Shown here: piece after piece, positions 22,801 to 63,417 of the stretch
Layout: each line of letters starts with the position of its first letter
How positions within the stretch are numbered: position 1 is the first letter of the stretch
Assembly (NCBI GenBank): GCA_016928955.1
Contig: JAFGJV010000037.1
Location: 1 to 64,000 of the forward strand
DNA from: Spirochaetales bacterium
Lineage (GTDB): Bacteria > Spirochaetota > Spirochaetia > Treponematales > UBA12059
DNA length: 64,000 nt
Reading direction: 5' to 3'
Notes under the pieces: generated by a model
Database searches by the model: none
Told to the model about the DNA's origin: nothing
Seen by the model: only the letters and a program-made list of their open reading frames with translations
Translations under genes and position numbers: made by a program

Positions 22801-23349
22801 ATGGAGTATTTCGCCATCCAGGTGTGGACTGGCAAGGAAGACGACTTTGTGCGCTCTCTGGCGCTGACAATGGGAGTCGGTTCGGGCGCCTTTGTGCCCA
22901 AGCGGGCCCTGTCCATACGCAGGCGCGGGAAAATCCTCCGGGAGGAACGCCCCCTGTTCCCCGGATACGTGTTCCTTCCCTGCGACAGCGACACGTTCCC
23001 CGTGGACAAGCGCTGGGCCATACGGTCAATCAACCACTTCCTCCGTTTTCTGCCCGACTCCCTGGCTCCAAGACCCATCAAGGAGCATGACAGGGCCGTG
23101 CTGTCGCATTTCATATCCTTTGGCAAATGCGCCGATACATCGAAGGTAATCTTCGACGAGAACCAGCGCATCGTGGTGCTCGAGGGACCGCTCAAGGGGC
23201 TGGAAGGCCTGATAGTCAGGGTCGACAAGCGCAAGCACCGGGCCAAAGTGCGGCTGGACATGTGCAGGGACTCCTTCCTGGTCGATCTTGGCTTTGAGGT
23301 CATGGAGCGTCCCGTGAAAGGATCCGTGGACAGCGATGGGAAGGCCTGA
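22801..23349 (+). CDS. NusG paralogue (RfaH/UpxY/LoaP-type antiterminator)
   Basis: 182 residues. N-terminal NGN domain (MEYFAIQVWTGKEDDFV, RERPLFPGYVFLP-type core REERPLFPGYVFL) and a C-terminal KOW motif (IVVLEGPLKGLEGLIVRV). Core NusG normally sits beside secE and rplK. This one heads a polysaccharide-type operon, the position of UpxY, RfaH and LoaP antiterminators that let RNA polymerase read long operons. It overlaps the CapD-like gene by 14 bases. Its target is inferred to be the operon it heads (to about 30 kb). Confidence 0.87.
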   Translation: MEYFAIQVWTGKEDDFVRSLALTMGVGSGAFVPKRALSIRRRGKILREERPLFPGYVFLPCDSDTFPVDKRWAIRSINHFLRFLPDSLAPRPIKEHDRAVLSHFISFGKCADTSKVIFDENQRIVVLEGPLKGLEGLIVRVDKRKHRAKVRLDMCRDSFLVDLGFEVMERPVKGSVDSDGKA

Positions 23350-24829
23350 ACGTAACCGAATCTACGTGGTCGGAGCCGGTTTTGCCGGCAGGTCGATAGC
23401 AGCCGAACTGGCCAGCAAGGGCGTTTTCGGTTGCGTGGTCGCTTTTCTGGACGACGATCCCGGCAAGATCGGCGCCAGGGTAGACGGCATACCGGTCCTT
23501 GGCCCCATAAGCGACCTTGCCGCCCTGCTCCGAACGACCCCGGCCGACGAGGCCATCATAGCCATACCGAGCGCATCCCGGGAACGCCTACGCGAACTGT
23601 ACTACACGCTCAAGGCGGCCGGTTTTGTCCGCATACGCATACTCCCAGACGTGGCGCAGATCGTGGAAGGCGACGCCCACCTGGTGCAAACCCGGGAGAT
23701 TGACCCCCAGGACCTCCTGGGACGCTCCCCCGTGGCCGTGGGCCTCAAGGAAAGCCTGGCCTGGCTGGCGGGCAAGCGCGTCATGATCACCGGCGCGGGC
23801 GGTTCCATTGGTTCGGAACTGGCCCGCCAGCTTCTGTCGGCGGGCGTGGAGCGGCTGTACCTGTTTGGCCACGGGGAAAATTCCATCTACCAGATAGACC
23901 ACGAACTGAGGGACCTGCAGTCCGGCGGCGTGGGCGTGAGCACGGCCATTGTGCCCGTGATCGGCGACCTCAAAGACGGACCCTACCTGTCCTTCCTTCT
24001 CAAGCGGCTCCGCACCGACGTGGTCTTCCACGCTGCCGCCTACAAGCACGTGCCCATGATGGAAGCCAATACCGTGGCCGCGATCCAAAACAACGTGTTC
24101 GGCACCCTCAACCTGGTCAACGCGGCCCTGGATGCGGACACCCGGCGTTTCGTGCTGATCAGCACCGACAAGGCGGTGGATCCGCTGTGCGTGTACGGGG
24201 CGTCCAAACAGCTGTCCGAGCGCGTGGTGCTGGACGCTCAGGATCGGGCAACGCGGGACGGACTGAACGGGAACTTCATGGTGGTGCGCTTCGGGAACGT
24301 GCTCGGCTCCCGGGGATCCATCCTGCCCCTGTTCATGCGCCAGATTTCCCAGGGCGGACCGGTAACCGTCACCCATCCGGACGCCACCCGGTATTTCATG
24401 ACCATTCCGGAGGCTTGTTCCCTGGTCATCAAGGCGGGCGGCGCGGGCTCAGGCGGCCAATCGTACATTCTGGACATGGGCGACCCCGTGCCCATCAGGG
24501 AGCTTGCCGAACAGGTCATACGGTTTTCTGGCTACGAACCCGGCGTGGACATCGGTATCAGCTACATAGGCCTCAGGCCGGGAGAGCGCGTCCACGAGCG
24601 CCTGCATTCCGCGCTTGAGGACCTACAGCCCACCGAACACGGCAGCATCAACCGCCTGGTGCGGCGCGATGGCCCCTTTGACCTTGCCGGCATACTGTCG
24701 GAACTGGCTCCCGTTTGCGTGGAGGATCCCGAGCGGCCGCGGCTGTATCGCAACAGAGTGGCGCTCAGGCGTATACTGAGGGCCTATCTGCCCAGCGTCG
24801 AGGAGCTGCCCGATGAACCCGAGTACTGA
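23336..24829 (+). CDS. CapD/FlaA1-type nucleoside-diphosphate-sugar 4,6-dehydratase
   Basis: 497 residues. N-terminal nucleotide-binding domain (VVGAGFAGRSIAAEL, about 10-130) without the membrane helices found in long WbpM-type proteins, then an extended SDR domain with ITGAGGSIGSEL (151-162), STDKAVDP and YGASK, which supplies a YxxxK pair. Such enzymes make UDP-4-keto-6-deoxy sugars for surface glycans or flagellin glycosylation. The next gene is a sugar aminotransferase, so the pair would produce an aminodeoxy sugar. 17-base overlap with it. Confidence 0.93.
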   Translation: MGRPERNRIYVVGAGFAGRSIAAELASKGVFGCVVAFLDDDPGKIGARVDGIPVLGPISDLAALLRTTPADEAIIAIPSASRERLRELYYTLKAAGFVRIRILPDVAQIVEGDAHLVQTREIDPQDLLGRSPVAVGLKESLAWLAGKRVMITGAGGSIGSELARQLLSAGVERLYLFGHGENSIYQIDHELRDLQSGGVGVSTAIVPVIGDLKDGPYLSFLLKRLRTDVVFHAAAYKHVPMMEANTVAAIQNNVFGTLNLVNAALDADTRRFVLISTDKAVDPLCVYGASKQLSERVVLDAQDRATRDGLNGNFMVVRFGNVLGSRGSILPLFMRQISQGGPVTVTHPDATRYFMTIPEACSLVIKAGGAGSGGQSYILDMGDPVPIRELAEQVIRFSGYEPGVDIGISYIGLRPGERVHERLHSALEDLQPTEHGSINRLVRRDGPFDLAGILSELAPVCVEDPERPRLYRNRVALRRILRAYLPSVEELPDEPEY

Positions 24830-25982
24830 ATTCATACCCTTTGCAAAACCCTCGCTCGGACCCGAGGAGGAAGAAGCCGTCCTCAGGATCATGCGCTCGG
24901 GCTGGCTGACCACCGGTTCCGAAACCCTGGCGTTTGAGCGCGAATTCGCCGATTTTGTGGGCGTTCCGCGAGCCATGGCCGTGAATTCGGCCACCAGCGG
25001 CCTCCATCTGGCCCTGGAGGCCCTGGGCATAGGCCCCGGAGACGTGGTTGTCGCTCCCACGTATACCTTTGCCAGCACGGCCGCCGTGGTCAGGCACCTG
25101 GGAGCCGAGGTGGCCTTCTGCGACACGGCTCCCGGTTCGTACAACATGGACCCCGGGGCTTTGGAGTCCGTCCTGAAGACAACGCGGAACGTGCGCGCCG
25201 TGGTACCCGTGCACGTGGGCGGCCTGCCCTGCGACATGGACGCCATAGTGCCGCTGGCCAGGCGCTACGGCTGCGCCGTGGTAGAGGACGCCGCCCACGC
25301 CTTCCCGTCACGGACCGCGGCGGGCATGGCCGGCACCCTGGGCGACATAGGCGTGTATTCCTTCTACGCCACCAAGACCATCACCACCGGCGAGGGCGGC
25401 ATGGTGGTCAGCGGCAACGAGGCTCTATGCGCCAGGATGTCGCGCATGCGGATGCACGGCATAGACCGCGAGGTGTGGGACCGCTATACGTCCAAAAAGG
25501 CGTCCTGGGTGTACGAGGTGTCGGAGGCTGGCTTCAAGTACAACCTGCCGGACATCCTGTCCGCCATGGGAAGGGTCCAGCTGACCAAGGCGGACCGCTT
25601 CCTGGCCGAGCGGCAGGCCATAGCCGGCATCTATAACCAGGCGTTCGGGAGCCACAGCGGCCTCGTCCTGCCTCCCTCCGGCACCGGCCATGCCTGGCAC
25701 CTGTACTCGCTCAGAGTCAATCCCCGGGAAGCGGGCGCTGACAGGGACGGCCTCATAGCCGCCCTGGCCGACGCTGGCATAGGCTGCTCGGTCCACTTCA
25801 TTCCCCTGCATACCATGCCCTATTGGGCCGGGCGCTACGCCCTTGAGCCGGATTCCTATCCCAACGCCCTGGCCATGTACCAGTCCACCCTCAGCCTACC
25901 CATCTGGCAGGGCATGGGTCCCGAACGGGCCACACGGGTGGCGGAAGCCGTGCTCTCGGCCCTGGCCGGCGGACGCTCGTGA
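24813..25982 (+). CDS. DegT/DnrJ/EryC1/StrS family PLP sugar aminotransferase
   Basis: 389 residues. Fold-type I aminotransferase acting on keto sugars. N-terminal FAKPSLGPEEEEAVL and SGWLTTG, NSATSGLHLAL, aspartate in VVEDAAHAF, and PLP lysine K188 in YATKTITTGEGGM. Probably transaminates the product of the CapD-like enzyme just upstream. The last codons overlap the GTG start of the molybdo-hydroxylase gene (GTGA). Confidence 0.94.
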   Translation: MNPSTEFIPFAKPSLGPEEEEAVLRIMRSGWLTTGSETLAFEREFADFVGVPRAMAVNSATSGLHLALEALGIGPGDVVVAPTYTFASTAAVVRHLGAEVAFCDTAPGSYNMDPGALESVLKTTRNVRAVVPVHVGGLPCDMDAIVPLARRYGCAVVEDAAHAFPSRTAAGMAGTLGDIGVYSFYATKTITTGEGGMVVSGNEALCARMSRMRMHGIDREVWDRYTSKKASWVYEVSEAGFKYNLPDILSAMGRVQLTKADRFLAERQAIAGIYNQAFGSHSGLVLPPSGTGHAWHLYSLRVNPREAGADRDGLIAALADAGIGCSVHFIPLHTMPYWAGRYALEPDSYPNALAMYQSTLSLPIWQGMGPERATRVAEAVLSALAGGRS

Positions 25983-28003
25983 AGGCACGGTCCAGGGGCT
26001 TTGGGCTTGAGGACGGCCGCTTGTCGTCCTTCAGGCCGCCTGATTTGGTCTATGTCGCCACCGTTCGCGCGCCCTCCGGCCCAGGAGCCATCCAGTCCAT
26101 CCACTCGCCGCATCTGCCCCGCGATTACCGGTTCATCACAGCCGAGGATATACCCGGACAGGCGGCCATGGAGTTTCCGGGCGATAAGGTACCCATCCTG
26201 GCCAAGGGACGCGTGGACTACCCCGGTCAGCCGGTGGGACTCATAGCCGGTCCTGACCGCGGCCGCGTGGACGAAGCAGTACGCCTGACCAAAGTGCTGG
26301 TGGACGCCGCTCCTGAAGACGGCGGCCTGGATTGTTTTGGGTCCGGGCGGCTGAAAGCCCGAGCCCAGCGCTCAACGGGCGACGTGGACCGGGCCCTGGC
26401 AGAAGCGGCCACCGTGGTCAAGGCCAGCTACCGCCTTGGAGCCGTGGACCACTACTATCCCGAGCCCCAGGGCGCCGCCGCCTATTACGACTACGATCGC
26501 CTGGTCATCCTGTCGTCCACCCAGTGGCCGTCCCAGGTCCGGCGGGCCATAGCCTCCGCCCTGGCCGTGGACCAGTCTGCCGTCACGGTTTTGTCCGGTT
26601 TCCTGGGCCCCCACCTGGACGGCAAGCTGTGGTACCCGTCCCTTCTGGCCTGTCATGCCGCCCTGGTCGCCTTCATCCTGGGCAAACCGGCCATGCTTCA
26701 GCTGAGCCGAGACGAGGACTTTCTCTACACGCCCAAACGGGCTCCCCTGCTCGCATCGTACCGAGCGGGGATGGACGAAGATGGCCGCCTGTGCGCCTTG
26801 GACGCCAGCCTGGCGGTCAACATTGGCGCCCACGGACCCCTGGCGGCAGCCATTGTGGACACGCTAGCTGCTTCGTTCACGGGCCCGTACTCCTGCCCGG
26901 CCGTCCGCGCCGACGTATGGGCCGTCGCCAGCGACAGGCCGCCCATGGGAGCCTGGGCTGGCCTGGGCCTCTCATCGGCGACCTACGGCCTGGAGCGCCT
27001 GGCGGACGCCTGCTCCCGGGCATCGGGCGCGGATCCCCTGGCTTTCAGGCTGCTCAACGTATCTCAAAAAGGCGACACCACCAGCGGCGTCGCCCTGAAG
27101 CAGGTCCCTAGGCTTAAGGGAGTGTCCGAACGTCTGCTTGAGCTCTCGGATTACCGGCGCAAACGGTCCGCCTACGAACTGATAAGAAAGCGCAGGCCCG
27201 ACCCGTCCCTGCCCCCGGGCTTTGGCGTTGGTCTGGCTTTTGCCTACCAAAGCAACGATCTGCTCCCCGCCTTTGGGAACCTCAAGGCGCTGGCGGTGGA
27301 GGCAGAACTAGACAAGGACGGTTTCCTGACCATCCGGGCGCCCATACTGCCCACTGACTCCAGCGCCCTGGGTGTATGGCGCAACGAGGCTGCCGCCATC
27401 ATCGGCATAGATCCCAAGGCGGTGCGTGTCGAGCGCGACGCCGGGGCTGACAGCCCTGACGCGGGTCCGGCGGCCTTCTCCAATGCCATGAACACGGTGG
27501 CGCGACTCGTGGGTGACGCGTGCTCGGACATACGGGACAGGCGTTTCCGCGAGGCCCTGCCCCTGGTGGCCCGCAAGGTCAACCGGAAATCAGGCCGGAA
27601 ATCCTCCCCGCTTGACGGGGCAAGCTGGGCCGGAGCCGTGGTGGAACTGACCCTGGATCCCCTGGATGGCCGCCCCAGGGTCAAGGGAGTTTGGCTGAGC
27701 CTGGACGCCGGCCGCGTGCTGTCGCCGGTCAAGGCACGGCTTTCCCTGGAGCGGGACGCGGCACGCGCGCTTTCCACCTGCCTGGGAGAGCGCTTTGATC
27801 CGGATCACGCGGGCCCGGCCAGCATCCGCGCGTACCGCATATCGCGGCTGGACGACACGCCGCCCATCGTCGTCGACTTTCTGGACACGGGCGACGCCCG
27901 GCCCGGCGGCTTGGGAGAGCTCGCGTTCTCCTGCGTGCCGGCGGCTTTTGCCAACGCCCTGTCCCAGGCCAGCGATTCAGCCGATTCCGAGGAGACCGCA
28001 TGA
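25979..28003 (+). CDS. Molybdo-hydroxylase large subunit, eroded cofactor motifs
   Basis: 674 residues, aldehyde oxidase/xanthine dehydrogenase superfamily, but without the 2Fe-2S and FAD parts, which are separate genes downstream. The N-terminal a/b domain (about 20-110) and Mo-binding halves are recognisable, e.g. HYYPEPQGAAAYYDY, TQWPSQVRRAIA and the terminal GGLGELAFSCVPAAFANAL with the catalytic-type Glu. The usual GGGFGGK loop reads SGFLGPHLDGK, the Mo-pocket RG(F/A)G region reads MGAWAGLGL, and no GQG motif is seen in the second half. Either a divergent enzyme or one no longer binding Moco. Starts with GTG. Confidence 0.82.
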   Translation: MKARSRGFGLEDGRLSSFRPPDLVYVATVRAPSGPGAIQSIHSPHLPRDYRFITAEDIPGQAAMEFPGDKVPILAKGRVDYPGQPVGLIAGPDRGRVDEAVRLTKVLVDAAPEDGGLDCFGSGRLKARAQRSTGDVDRALAEAATVVKASYRLGAVDHYYPEPQGAAAYYDYDRLVILSSTQWPSQVRRAIASALAVDQSAVTVLSGFLGPHLDGKLWYPSLLACHAALVAFILGKPAMLQLSRDEDFLYTPKRAPLLASYRAGMDEDGRLCALDASLAVNIGAHGPLAAAIVDTLAASFTGPYSCPAVRADVWAVASDRPPMGAWAGLGLSSATYGLERLADACSRASGADPLAFRLLNVSQKGDTTSGVALKQVPRLKGVSERLLELSDYRRKRSAYELIRKRRPDPSLPPGFGVGLAFAYQSNDLLPAFGNLKALAVEAELDKDGFLTIRAPILPTDSSALGVWRNEAAAIIGIDPKAVRVERDAGADSPDAGPAAFSNAMNTVARLVGDACSDIRDRRFREALPLVARKVNRKSGRKSSPLDGASWAGAVVELTLDPLDGRPRVKGVWLSLDAGRVLSPVKARLSLERDAARALSTCLGERFDPDHAGPASIRAYRISRLDDTPPIVVDFLDTGDARPGGLGELAFSCVPAAFANALSQASDSADSEETA

Positions 28004-28485
28004 ACGTTACGTTCATCCTGAACGGAGAGGATGTGGCCTGCACGGCAGGGGCCCTGGACAGGCTGTCAGAATTGCTGCGCGACACGTTCGGCATGGCATC
28101 CGTGAACACCGACTGCGGCTCGGGCAGGTGCGGTACCTGCCTGGTGCTCATGGACGGCCGCCCGGTCAACTCCTGCCTGGTACCAGCGTTCAGGGCACGC
28201 GACTGCGAGATCATCACCTACGAAGGCTTTTCCAGAACCGACGACTACGGCCGCGTGCAGGCTGCCTTTGACAGGCACGGCGTGGACCTCTGCCCCTTCT
28301 GCCGGCCGGCTCGGTATCTGGCCATCGGCTCGGCCATGGACGCCCGCTCGGATTCCAGGGGAGCGGATCTGCCCTCGGTGCTGTCGTCGGTGCTGTGCAC
28401 CTGCTCGTCTCCGGCGGCTGTCCTTGCGGCGGCCATGGACGCCCTTGCCGGCCGTCAGGGCCCGAGGTACAGCCGTGACCATTGA
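28000..28485 (+). CDS. Molybdo-hydroxylase small subunit, two 2Fe-2S clusters
   Basis: 161 residues. Plant-ferredoxin-type cluster CGSGRCGTC with a further Cys in NSC, then the second cluster domain with CPFC and CTC. The classical surroundings of cluster two (QCGFCTPG, CRCTGY) are altered to LCPFCRPAR and LCTCSS, but all four Cys remain. It passes electrons from the Mo subunit to the FAD subunit. ATGA overlap with the large subunit. Confidence 0.9.
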   Translation: MNVTFILNGEDVACTAGALDRLSELLRDTFGMASVNTDCGSGRCGTCLVLMDGRPVNSCLVPAFRARDCEIITYEGFSRTDDYGRVQAAFDRHGVDLCPFCRPARYLAIGSAMDARSDSRGADLPSVLSSVLCTCSSPAAVLAAAMDALAGRQGPRYSRDH

Positions 28486-29317
28486 CGACGTAGCGCGCCC
28501 GGCCACCGTACAGGAGGCCGTGGCTTCCCTCAAGCGCAGGCCTGACGCCATCCTGTGGGCCGGCGGCACCCTGCTCATGTCCGATCCTTCCTGTATCCCG
28601 GCGGACCGGCTGGTATCCATCGTGGACATAGGCCGGCTGCCGGAACTGGCAGGCATACACCGTACCGAGCGCTACGTTGAGGTGGGTGCTGCCGTTACCC
28701 TGGCGTCGCTCCTTGCCCTGCCCAAGCCAGCGCTTCTGGGCCCCCTTGCCATGGCCGCAGCGGCCGTTGGCACAGCGTCGGTCAGAAACCTGGCCACGCT
28801 GGGCGGAACCATAGCCTGCCGCAACCGTTTCATGTCCTGCTTTGCCGCCCTATCGTGCATGGATGCCGCCGTGGAGCTGCGCGACCCCCGGGGCGTTCGC
28901 TGGCACGGTATACACAAACTGGTTGGCCCGGGTAACCGCCCAGCCTTCCCGGAGGCCAGCATGCTTACCCGCGTCCGCCTTCCCCATCTGAGCTGGGATG
29001 CCGTGGTAGTGCGAGCCCTGGGCGACCCGCCCTACCCCCATCCCGACGCGTCCACCTTTGCCGCGTGCGCACGCATAGAGCAGGGCGTGCTGGCCGACCT
29101 GCGCGTGGCAGTGTCCGGGCGGATACTGGTCAGGGACCGTTCCTTGGAAATGACCCTGGCAGGCCGGCGCCTTCCGCTATCTCGCAGGGAGATAGGCTCG
29201 TTCTCATCGGATATGGCGGCGTCTGCCCTGGCCCTGTCCATCCCGCCGGACATCAGCTCCCGGCTGGAGGCCTACGTGTCGGCTTTCCTGGACCATCCGG
29301 AGGAATACGCCCTATGA
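28475..29317 (+). CDS. Molybdo-hydroxylase FAD-binding subunit
   Basis: 280 residues. CO-dehydrogenase flavoprotein type: ARPATVQEAVASL at the N-terminus, ILWAGGTLLMSD for the first FAD loop, and SVRNLATLGGTIACRNRF for the second. Start is GTG at 28475, 8 bases after GAGG, overlapping the 2Fe-2S gene by 11 bases. Completes a three-gene hydroxylase set in the order large, small, FAD. Confidence 0.9.
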   Translation: MTIDDVARPATVQEAVASLKRRPDAILWAGGTLLMSDPSCIPADRLVSIVDIGRLPELAGIHRTERYVEVGAAVTLASLLALPKPALLGPLAMAAAAVGTASVRNLATLGGTIACRNRFMSCFAALSCMDAAVELRDPRGVRWHGIHKLVGPGNRPAFPEASMLTRVRLPHLSWDAVVVRALGDPPYPHPDASTFAACARIEQGVLADLRVAVSGRILVRDRSLEMTLAGRRLPLSRREIGSFSSDMAASALALSIPPDISSRLEAYVSAFLDHPEEYAL

Positions 29318-30102
29318 CCGGGACGCTGTTCTTGGTGCCCGTACCCATAGGCCCGGGTCAGCCCGTGGACGAGCTTTCTCCCAGAACCTTGGGCGCTGTC
29401 CGGGATGTCAGGGACTTTGTGGTGGAAAATGTACGGAGCGCCCGGCGCTTCCTGTCCACGGTCATGGACCAGGCCGACGTGGACGCGTCCCGTTTCTGGG
29501 TGATCGACAAGGACAGTACGGCCGCCGACGCGGACGCCGCGATAACGGCCCTGAAAGACGGTAGGGACACGGCCTATCTGTCCGAAGCCGGAAGCCCCTG
29601 CGTGGCGGATCCTGGAGCTCTGGTGGTGGCCGCAGCCCATGCGGCCGGTGCCCGCGTCGTGCCCCTGGCCGGCCCCAGCGCCATACTCCTTGCCCTGATG
29701 GCGTCCGGCCTGGGCGGCCAGCGTTTCAGCTTTGAGGGATACCTGCCCGCGGACGAGACCGGCCGCTCGCGCGCCCTGCTGGCCCTGGAAACGGCCAGCT
29801 CCAGGGACGGCGGCACGCGGCTGTGCATAGAGACCCCGTACCGGACCGGCGCCTTTGCTGCGAGCGCCGTGCGCGTCCTGCGACACGATACCTGGCTGTG
29901 CGCGGCCTGCGCCCTGTCCAGTCCCGCTGAACTGGTAGTGTCCAGACGCGTGGAGGACTGGAAAGCCAGGCCTGTGGACCTGCCCAGGGAACCCTGCGTG
30001 TTTGTCCTGCAGGCGGCGCGGAGCCCTGACCAGACAGTACAGGGCCGCTCCAGGCGGGGATCCGGAAACGGCCCGGCAAAATCCGGCCGCAGAAGTTCTT
30101 GA
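29314..30102 (+). CDS. RsmI-related SAM-dependent methyltransferase
   Basis: 262 residues. Tetrapyrrole-methylase fold as in the 16S rRNA 2'-O-methyltransferase RsmI. Shows LFLVPVPIG, FVVENVRSARRFLS, LSEAGSPCVADPG and VPLAGPSAILLALMASGLGG. This matches the shorter Bacteroidetes/spirochaete branch whose target is not established. Basic tail (SRRGSGNGPAKSGRRSS). ATGA overlap with the FAD subunit. Confidence 0.87.
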   Translation: MTGTLFLVPVPIGPGQPVDELSPRTLGAVRDVRDFVVENVRSARRFLSTVMDQADVDASRFWVIDKDSTAADADAAITALKDGRDTAYLSEAGSPCVADPGALVVAAAHAAGARVVPLAGPSAILLALMASGLGGQRFSFEGYLPADETGRSRALLALETASSRDGGTRLCIETPYRTGAFAASAVRVLRHDTWLCAACALSSPAELVVSRRVEDWKARPVDLPREPCVFVLQAARSPDQTVQGRSRRGSGNGPAKSGRRSS

Positions 30103-30135
30103 CGCGGCGCTGCTTCCGTTCGAAACTCAAGTCCG

Positions 30136-30957
30136 ATGGCAGTACAGAACCAGCGCAACCTCTACGAGCAGTACGAGAACGACACGATAGCGGTCAGCCC
30201 CTTTGCCCAGTCCCACATGGGCCTCTTAACCGGGCAGACGGCCATGAAAATAGAAACCTACATGATAGCCTGCGTGCCCTTCCGCCTGTCCATGAAGGGC
30301 GCCATGCTCCTGGGCGCTTTCTCGCGGGAAGAACTGGTGTTCTTCCAGCGCTACGCCGGTTCCCTGGCGGGCCTGTCCCTGGTATTCCAGCCGGGCAATT
30401 CGCCCCAGCCCCTGAAAATTTTTGCCCGCTGCGTCCTTAAATCGGTGGCGCCCATGCAGGGCAAGGAGTCCATAGGCCTCATCACGGTGGAATGGAAACC
30501 CTGCCCCCCCGACCTCTTGGGCATCATAGGCGACTATTTCCTGCTTCTGGACAGGCTCAAGGCCGAGTACCAGGACTTCAAGGCCCACCGCATTTCCATC
30601 AACGCCGCAAGCGCCCATACCATGGGCTACAACAACTACGCCGTGCTCCAGTATGGCGGAGGCCAGCACAAGGCGGCCCTCTTTGCGCTGGCCAGCGACC
30701 GCCTGGAATTCCTCCTGCCCATGAACACGCCGCCCCTGGAACAGGGTGGCAAACTATCCGTCAAGTTGTATTTCAGGGTGGCCCAGTTCTCGGTGGCGGC
30801 CCAGGTGGCCGAGCTGACCCGCCTGCCCAACGGTGCGCAGAAGGCCACCCTGGCCATAGGCTTCTCGCCCGAGCTGGTGGACATCATAGAGCGCTACCGT
30901 TTTGCCGAGCGCTTCTCCGCCGCCAAGGGACCGGACCAGACAGAGCCGGGCGCCTAG
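30136..30957 (+). CDS. PilZ-like domain protein, YcgR layout
   Basis: 273 residues. Two beta-rich domains: the first (about 15-130) resembles the N-terminal domain of YcgR-type PilZ proteins, the second (about 150-260) a PilZ-like barrel. The c-di-GMP-binding RxxxR and (D/N)xSxxG motifs are not clearly present, so ligand binding is doubtful. No membrane segment. Possibly links surface or motility functions to the operon, as treponemal PilZ proteins do. Convergent with mfd. Confidence 0.6.
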   Translation: MAVQNQRNLYEQYENDTIAVSPFAQSHMGLLTGQTAMKIETYMIACVPFRLSMKGAMLLGAFSREELVFFQRYAGSLAGLSLVFQPGNSPQPLKIFARCVLKSVAPMQGKESIGLITVEWKPCPPDLLGIIGDYFLLLDRLKAEYQDFKAHRISINAASAHTMGYNNYAVLQYGGGQHKAALFALASDRLEFLLPMNTPPLEQGGKLSVKLYFRVAQFSVAAQVAELTRLPNGAQKATLAIGFSPELVDIIERYRFAERFSAAKGPDQTEPGA

Positions 30958-62241: not shown

Positions 62242-62258
<17 letters not shown>

Positions 62259-63417
62259 AGCCCTGAAGATCGTGCTGTCGTGCAGGCAACGGCCGCAGGT
62301 AGAAACCGTGCCCCTGGATCAGGCCCTGGGCCGCGTGCTCGCGGCTCCCGTGGCGTCATCCATGGACCAGCCGCCCTTTTCCAAGGCGGCCGTGGACGGT
62401 TGGGCCTGGAACTCGGAAGCCAGCGGCCTGGCGCCTGAGTCGCTGGCCGTCCGCAACGTCATTGCCGCGGGCGAGTCCGACCAGCGGCCTCTGGGAGCCG
62501 GCGAGACGGTCAAGGTCATGACCGGCGCTCCCCTGCCACCCGGAGCCGACCGCATCCAGAAGGTAGAGTGCGCCCAGGAATCTGACGGCGCGGTGCGCTT
62601 TACCAAGCCGGAGCGCATAGACAACGTCATACAGCGCGGCGAGAACGCCCGCACAGGAGACACCATCGTGTCGCCGCGGCAGCTCGATGCCCAGGATCTG
62701 GCCATACTAGCCGCGGACGGGCGTAACAGAGTGGATGTGGCCGTCCGGCCCGTGGTCGGCGTCCTGTCCACCGGCGCGGAGCTTGCCCAGCCCGGAGAAA
62801 ACCTCAAGCCCGGCTGGATATACGACTCCAACCGTACCCAGCTCGCGGCCCACCTGTCCGGAATAGCTGTCATCAGGGACTTTGGAACTCTCCCCGACGA
62901 CTACGACGCCACCCTGGCGGCGGTCGGCTCGGCCCTCAGCCAGTGCGATGTGCTGGTACTGTCCGGAGGGGTATCCATGGGCGACTATGACTACGTGCCC
63001 AAAGCCTTGGTCGCAGCGGGCGTCCGCACCCTGTTCCACGGCGTGGCGGTCAAGCCCGGCAAGCCGACCTTCTTTGGCACGTCAGCAAAGAGCTACGTGT
63101 TCGGGCTCCCGGGCAACCCGGTGTCTGTCTTTGTCAACACCGAGTTCTTGGTCAAACCCCTGCTGTATGGCCTCCAGGGCGTGGAATACCGCGGCCTGTC
63201 CGCGCCCGTAACCCTCTCGGAAGGCATACGCCGTGGCAGTACCGAGCGGGTGGAGTTCCTTCCTGTCAGCATAGACGCGGACGGCGCCAAACCGGTACCC
63301 TACGGCGGCTCGTCGGCCCTACAGGCTCTGGCCCACGCCTGTGGCTTTGTCAGGCTTGAACAGGGACAGAAAGAAATCAGCGCGGGGAGCGTCGTGCATG
63401 TTCGACTCGTTCGGTAG
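62242..63417 (+). CDS. moeA: MoeA, molybdopterin molybdenumtransferase
   Basis: 391 residues. Inserts Mo or W into adenylated molybdopterin. Four-domain protein: PPFSKAAVDGWA, MTGAPLPPGAD, VGVLSTGAELAQPGE, SGGVSMGDYDYV and the terminal beta-barrel. GGAGG lies 6 bases before the ATG at 62242. Sits between the transporter and moaA, so metal supply and cofactor assembly are made together. 20-base overlap with moaA. Confidence 0.96.

Follow-up and report, generated by a model that had tools for sequence, protein, structure and literature searches.

A three-subunit xanthine dehydrogenase-like complex without molybdenum cofactor-binding motifs in the class Spirochaetia

The XdL-XdS-XdM operon

Within the first 64,000 nucleotides of contig JAFGJV010000037.1 from a Spirochaetales bacterium (assembly GCA_016928955.1; this whole stretch is referred to here as the window) is an operon, encoded on the + strand, that includes genes for three proteins related to the subunits of xanthine dehydrogenase (XDH), labelled here XdL, XdS and XdM for large, small and medium subunit. 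XdL (25979..28003) is a large subunit of the molybdo-hydroxylase type lacking the loops that bind the molybdenum cofactor (Moco), as judged by Pfam, motif alignment and fold comparison; it scores 173.8 bits with MoCoBD_1 and only 28.8 bits with MoCoBD_2. XdS (28000..28485; PF01799 and PF00111) carries eight cysteines as ligands for two [2Fe-2S] clusters, and XdM (28475..29317; PF00941, 87 bits) is the subunit binding flavin adenine dinucleotide (FAD).

The first gene of the operon (22801..23349) encodes a LoaP-type NusG paralogue (NCBIfam NF033641 antiterm_LoaP, 141.9 bits against a cut-off of 125). It is followed by a PseB/FnlA-like UDP-sugar 4,6-dehydratase of the Polysacc_synt_2 family (23336..24829; PF02719, 352 bits) and by a DegT/PseC-like aminotransferase (24813..25982; PF01041, 374 bits) that has the lysine for pyridoxal phosphate (PLP). 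The GTG start of XdL overlaps the DegT stop codon (GTGA, 25979-25982), the coupling that an initial annotation of this locus had described. XdL and XdS are joined by an ATGA overlap, and the genes of XdS and XdM overlap as well (28475 against 28485).

Relatives of the trio are present in 173 of 198 genomes of the class Spirochaetia, a count that includes ordinary XDHs. Loci (L), genomes (G), families (f) and genera (g) are numbered here. Wide loci, some ended by contig ends, were fetched at 40 places: 39 with XdL and one (L091) with an ordinary XDH. XdS and XdM accompany XdL at all 39, PseB at 35 (as tblastn orthologues), DegT at 36 and LoaP at 24. A contig scan of the genomes yielded 148 relatives, and the best 80 were added as loci; their source titles name spirochetes, Treponema or Breznakiella in 79 cases and a 'bacterium' in one. 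Motifs were read in a set of 76 complete XdLs (the window and 75 named loci) and in a set of 136 (131 distinct sequences); left out were the badly framed L038, L049 and L050, cut open reading frames, L143 and one L195 fragment, and L091, L194 and L202 were reassigned to the ordinary XDH group. A score above 585 bits with the A1 profile, which selected 103 genomes, was dropped as an orthologue criterion, G116 at 593 bits being an ordinary XDH; true XdLs lie below this value (G142 at 574, G095 at 572, and G007, G033 and G052 at 444-453 bits). The score-based count was replaced by 71 genomes with a motif-read XdL, the other genomes above 585 bits standing outside the 71; ten additional XdLs enter the Moco gene count for these genomes and stand outside the 136. 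Seven of the best matches from outside Spirochaetia were read, and all seven are ordinary XDHs. A limited literature search found nothing on the locus beyond annotation tables.

The XdL pocket and the iron-sulphur and FAD sites

The AlphaFold2 model of XdL, built on a 76-sequence alignment, has a mean predicted local distance difference test (pLDDT) score of 90.1 and a predicted template modelling (pTM) score of 0.90. Foldseek ranks 4-hydroxybenzoyl-CoA reductase and xanthine dehydrogenase/oxidase highest, and VIA-align gives Z-scores of 35-40 over ~655 residues for the latter (for 1jro_B, Z-score of 39.9, r.m.s.d. of 2.8 and TM-score of 0.85 over 656 aligned residues). As modelled, XdL retains the whole fold of a Moco subunit; this structural comparison concerns the whole fold, and the pocket was judged by alignment.

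Compared with R. capsulatus and other XDHs, the window XdL has GPHLDGK at the place of GGxFGGK, AWAGLG at that of AFRGFG and DSS at that of GQG. The first replacement is part of the segment GPHLDGKLWYP (residues 210-220, codons 26606..26638), in which L217 stands for the glutamate of GGxFGGKE and is followed by W218, a tryptophan specific to the family. These losses are not a chance event of one sequence, because they recur across the class: GGxFGGK, RGFG and GQG are absent from all 76 complete XdLs (the glutamate of GxGE being kept in 66), and among the 136 XdLs GGxFGGK is found in none, GQG in one (L188) and the pocket arginine in two. The initial annotation, which had described a large subunit devoid of the GGGFGGK loop, the pocket arginine and any GQG motif, thus holds for the window and for the class, and alignment of the pocket finds the Moco-binding motifs gone. 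The exceptional L188 (6687-8729, in G054, one of the 71 genomes) has GQG alone, without GGxFGGK and RGFG, and is a possible intermediate.

Two of the lost residues are the loop glutamate (E232 in R. capsulatus, 2w55; E802 in bovine numbering) and the pocket arginine (R880). An aliphatic residue replaces the former in 133 of the 136 XdLs, and glutamate is kept in one. Former contact columns rank near the bottom of 666 columns in conservation (211, 0.01; 327, 0.09; 461, 0.05; 592, 0.06), while other positions have become nearly invariant: W183 is found in 128 of the 136, W218 in 118, W467 in 113, P528 in 133 and Q663 in 130. In a contrast set of 16 ordinary XDHs they occur seldom or not at all, W218 in none. 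These patterns suggest that XdL was rebuilt instead of decaying at random. Other parts of the catalytic site are more often retained. The catalytic glutamate of GxGE (E647 in the window) is E in 92, D in 21 and another residue in 23 of the 136, and the glutamine that faces molybdenum in XDH is kept in 111.

The initial annotation had called the iron-sulphur and FAD subunits near-intact, and in the window this is so: the two four-cysteine sets of XdS are complete, and AGGT is intact in XdM, LGGT standing for LGGN. Scored by the patterns C-x4-C-x2-C..C and C-x2-C..C-x-C, all eight cluster cysteines are kept in 104 of 111 XdS proteins. Among 108 XdMs, AGGT is exact in 78 and [LI]GGN in 93, many of the others having near forms. 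At four loci (L149, L154, L164 and L172) XdL has no XdS or XdM match in the fetched DNA, and the large subunit may stand alone there.

Host genomes, neighbouring genes and selection

MoaE, MoaC and MoeA were found in 29, 72 and 65 of the 198 genomes, respectively. All three are absent from 49 of the 71 motif-checked XdL genomes, including all 16 of families f2 and f3, and from 36 of the 50 with a completeness of no less than 95%, these 36 coming from 15 families. At least one was found in the other 22, and the window's own genome has all three, with MoeA and MoaC genes at the end of the window (62248-62718) and just beyond it (G000:C50:64248-64646); it also has three further MoCoBD_1 copies. 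Elsewhere, a second XDH-type gene (L055, G024:C1:2145099-2147285) encodes GGSFGGK together with ACRAYG, an altered arginine motif, and its genome gave no MoaC, MoeA or MoaE match.

One genome without MoaC, MoeA and MoaE is G077, which consists of one contig (1,139,633 bases) and has the order PseB-DegT-XdL-XdS-XdM as in the window. We take it to be Treponema pallidum, as gene order and a published list agree; TP0080 of this species is annotated as 'quinoline 2-oxidoreductase'. The tables of PMC4403809 (correction PMC5951579) list T. pallidum TPASS_0079 and TPASS_0081 as parts of xanthine dehydrogenase. Owing to the missing Moco genes and the lost pocket, the T. pallidum trio is not an ordinary molybdoenzyme, and as a statement of function the xanthine dehydrogenase/quinoline oxidoreductase annotation does not hold. 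The expectation that small-genome treponemes keep an annotated enzyme at this place agrees with the gene order of G077.

PseB and DegT, which most likely make a nonulosonic acid, are not found beside the trio at L098, L099 and L185 (f14, genus g18), at L189, L190, L192 and L193 (f20), at L191 (f5, on a short contig), at L215 and L217 (f28; G064 and G187) or at L219 (f6; G030). Searched genome-wide, PseB gave a best E-value of only 4e-11 in six g18 genomes and no match in G041 and G067, and in three f20 genomes the match is a longer protein, 37-38% identical. DegT, sought in eight trio genomes without the locus pair, is absent from three and has a best match 31-35% identical in five. A strong NeuB match is present in all 22 genomes in which the locus has PseB, DegT or both, against one of ten in which it has neither. 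The trio does not depend on the PseB/DegT pathway; the pathway-less genomes were chosen for keeping the trio, so that this comparison gives independence and not a rate. A complete XDH with normal motifs in the same surroundings, which the initial annotation had named as evidence against itself, was not found among the loci read that are flanked by PseB/DegT, L188 keeping GQG alone.

Downstream of the complex, and outside it, is an RsmI-like methylase gene (29314..30102, +), the start of which overlaps the XdM stop (ATGA), and then a gene with a PilZN3 domain (29314-30957 for both); clusters of similar proteins recur at 17 and 16 loci, respectively. More distant neighbours, named from reading of their sequences, are dnaE, yggT, mfd and a SPOR-domain gene.

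The ratio of non-synonymous to synonymous substitution rates (dN/dS) in 14 independent close pairs is 0.085-0.355 for XdL and, where measured, 0.060-0.510 for XdS and 0.078-0.385 for XdM; XdL is under purifying selection. Its divergence is nonetheless large, with a median pairwise identity of 28% for 31 XdLs against 52% for 11 ordinary XDHs drawn from more than one class, and G010 and G025 share 33% identity in XdL against 53% in their ordinary XDHs. A quick tree places 44 XdLs on one side of a single branch and 17 ordinary XDHs on the other (SH-aLRT 100). Within it, L095, L096, L102 and L188 stand apart from the other 40 XdLs and nearest the ordinary XDHs, at a weak fork.

Possible roles of the complex

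On balance, we are inclined to regard XdL-XdS-XdM as an XDH paralogue that arose once in Spirochaetia, lost its Moco site and has since been retained as a flavo-iron-sulphur complex that does not depend on Moco. In this scheme a soluble carrier, for example NAD(P)H, would exchange electrons with the FAD in XdM. Relayed by both [2Fe-2S] clusters of XdS, the electrons would reach the rebuilt XdL pocket and be passed there to a partner or a small molecule. In this pocket, W183, W218 and the aliphatic residue may stand in for the residues that faced Moco; we infer both the occupancy of the cofactors and the partner. LoaP presumably keeps RNA polymerase running through the long operon by antitermination. 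That the protein is degenerate yet functional and does not use Moco, as the initial annotation proposed, is supported by purifying selection and by the lack of the Moco genes sought in 36 of the 50 near-complete genomes in which the complex is kept. Among the options it offered, redox chemistry through the iron-sulphur and FAD sites without Moco is the one we favour, and judging by the ligands conserved in XdS a redox role is likely in most lineages, though not in all.

Several observations weigh against this reading. The XdS of the T. pallidum-like L063 has no ligands for the plant-type cluster, that of L076 (in the complete genome G027) has neither cysteine set, L083 lacks the second set and L073 two of its cysteines, and in L080, L081 and L089 one cysteine of the second set is out of register; the XdMs of L098 and L099 have lost AGGT outright, with FDD at its place. 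In lineages without a complete pair of clusters the chain cannot run in the form proposed here, so that the redox step is not universal, and with cluster or FAD motifs lost in some lineages the chain from FAD to XdL is not needed everywhere; in some the trio is perhaps only a scaffold. The frequent retention of the catalytic glutamate (as E or D) and of the molybdenum-facing glutamine could be read as the remnant of a molybdenum site, XdL has no XdS or XdM match in the DNA fetched at the four loci named above, and the single origin rests on a quick tree search with long end branches.

The main rival explanation is a pseudoenzyme scaffold, in which the complex is kept for binding partners (proteins, or membrane or glycan enzymes) and its clusters and FAD are structural leftovers dropped stepwise. 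This is possible, if rather doubtful: all three subunits persist where the sites lost differ (the plant-type cluster in L063, the second in L083, both in L076, the FAD motif in L098 and L099), and XdL changes faster than ordinary XDHs from a wider group, but complete sets of eight ligands in so large a share of XdS proteins exceed what a pure scaffold would need. We hold just as tentatively that the XDH fold was re-used in Spirochaetia as an enzyme without Moco, whose new pocket (W183, W218 and L/I for the loop glutamate) binds another cofactor or substrate. Its role would be a housekeeping one in treponemes, preserved in the T. pallidum-like genome of 1.14 Mb and independent of the sugar pathway that the trio usually accompanies. 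That the complex acts on an intermediate of the PseB-DegT sugar pathway (for nonulosonic acid), an option of the initial annotation, is suggested by the overlapping operon genes, by the frequency of both enzymes at the 39 loci and by the company of NeuB; according to passages of PMC9481697, the flagellins of T. denticola bear a glycan of 450.2 Da that is required for filament assembly. The option is weakened to the point of being unlikely by g18 (f14) and f20, which keep the trio without PseB or DegT orthologues or a strong NeuB, and by the trios of f5, f28 and f6 without adjoining PseB/DegT. Binding of Moco or another pterin in an altered mode, in the species that make Moco, with loss only later elsewhere, is very unlikely. 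It would suit the 22 genomes with at least one Moco gene, the window's included, and the catalytic glutamate and glutamine often kept, but the loops are equally lost in the genomes that have Moco genes (21 sequences), where the glutamate is E in only 11. A functionless, decaying relic, to which fast divergence and the progressive loss of cofactor sites might point, is scarcely credible given open frames across the class, the reduced genome included, dN/dS well below 1 in 14 of 14 pairs and new near-invariant residues.

Known systems share parts of this arrangement. The three-subunit bacterial XDH has the same large-subunit fold, the FAD and two-[2Fe-2S] subunits and the gene trio; unlike it, XdL has no Moco loops or pocket arginine and an aliphatic residue for the loop glutamate, and many of its hosts have no Moco genes. 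The nearest ordinary relatives read are the L091-type XDH paralogues of Spirochaetota (L091, L194, L202-L207, L213, L214 and L220), which share the PDSGP..SR and GxGE stretches with XdL, whereas all those read keep GGxFGGK, RGFG and GQG and have no PseB/DegT in the fetched neighbourhood. Quinoline 2-oxidoreductase (1t3q) has a similar fold (TM-score of 0.83), but its Moco site is absent from XdL, and the annotation reflects family resemblance only. In 3,6-dideoxyhexose synthesis, E1 is a DegT-family dehydrase with histidine for the PLP lysine, and E3 is a flavin/2Fe-2S reductase. The present locus likewise encodes a DegT-family protein with FAD/2Fe-2S proteins; an E1/E3-type deoxygenation was rejected, as DegT here retains the PLP lysine (a K precedes GEGG in 88 of 96 orthologues) and XdS and XdM are of the XDH type.

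The three T. pallidum genes annotated as parts of xanthine dehydrogenase or quinoline oxidoreductase cannot be ordinary molybdoenzymes. A complex common to most members of the class, family f22 (probably Borreliaceae) excepted, points to a function shared by most of these spirochetes. Its lineages provide a natural series of losses in a single enzyme family, of Moco and then of single clusters or FAD, under continued selection; the series makes it possible to test which functions are left to a molybdenum hydroxylase deprived of molybdenum.

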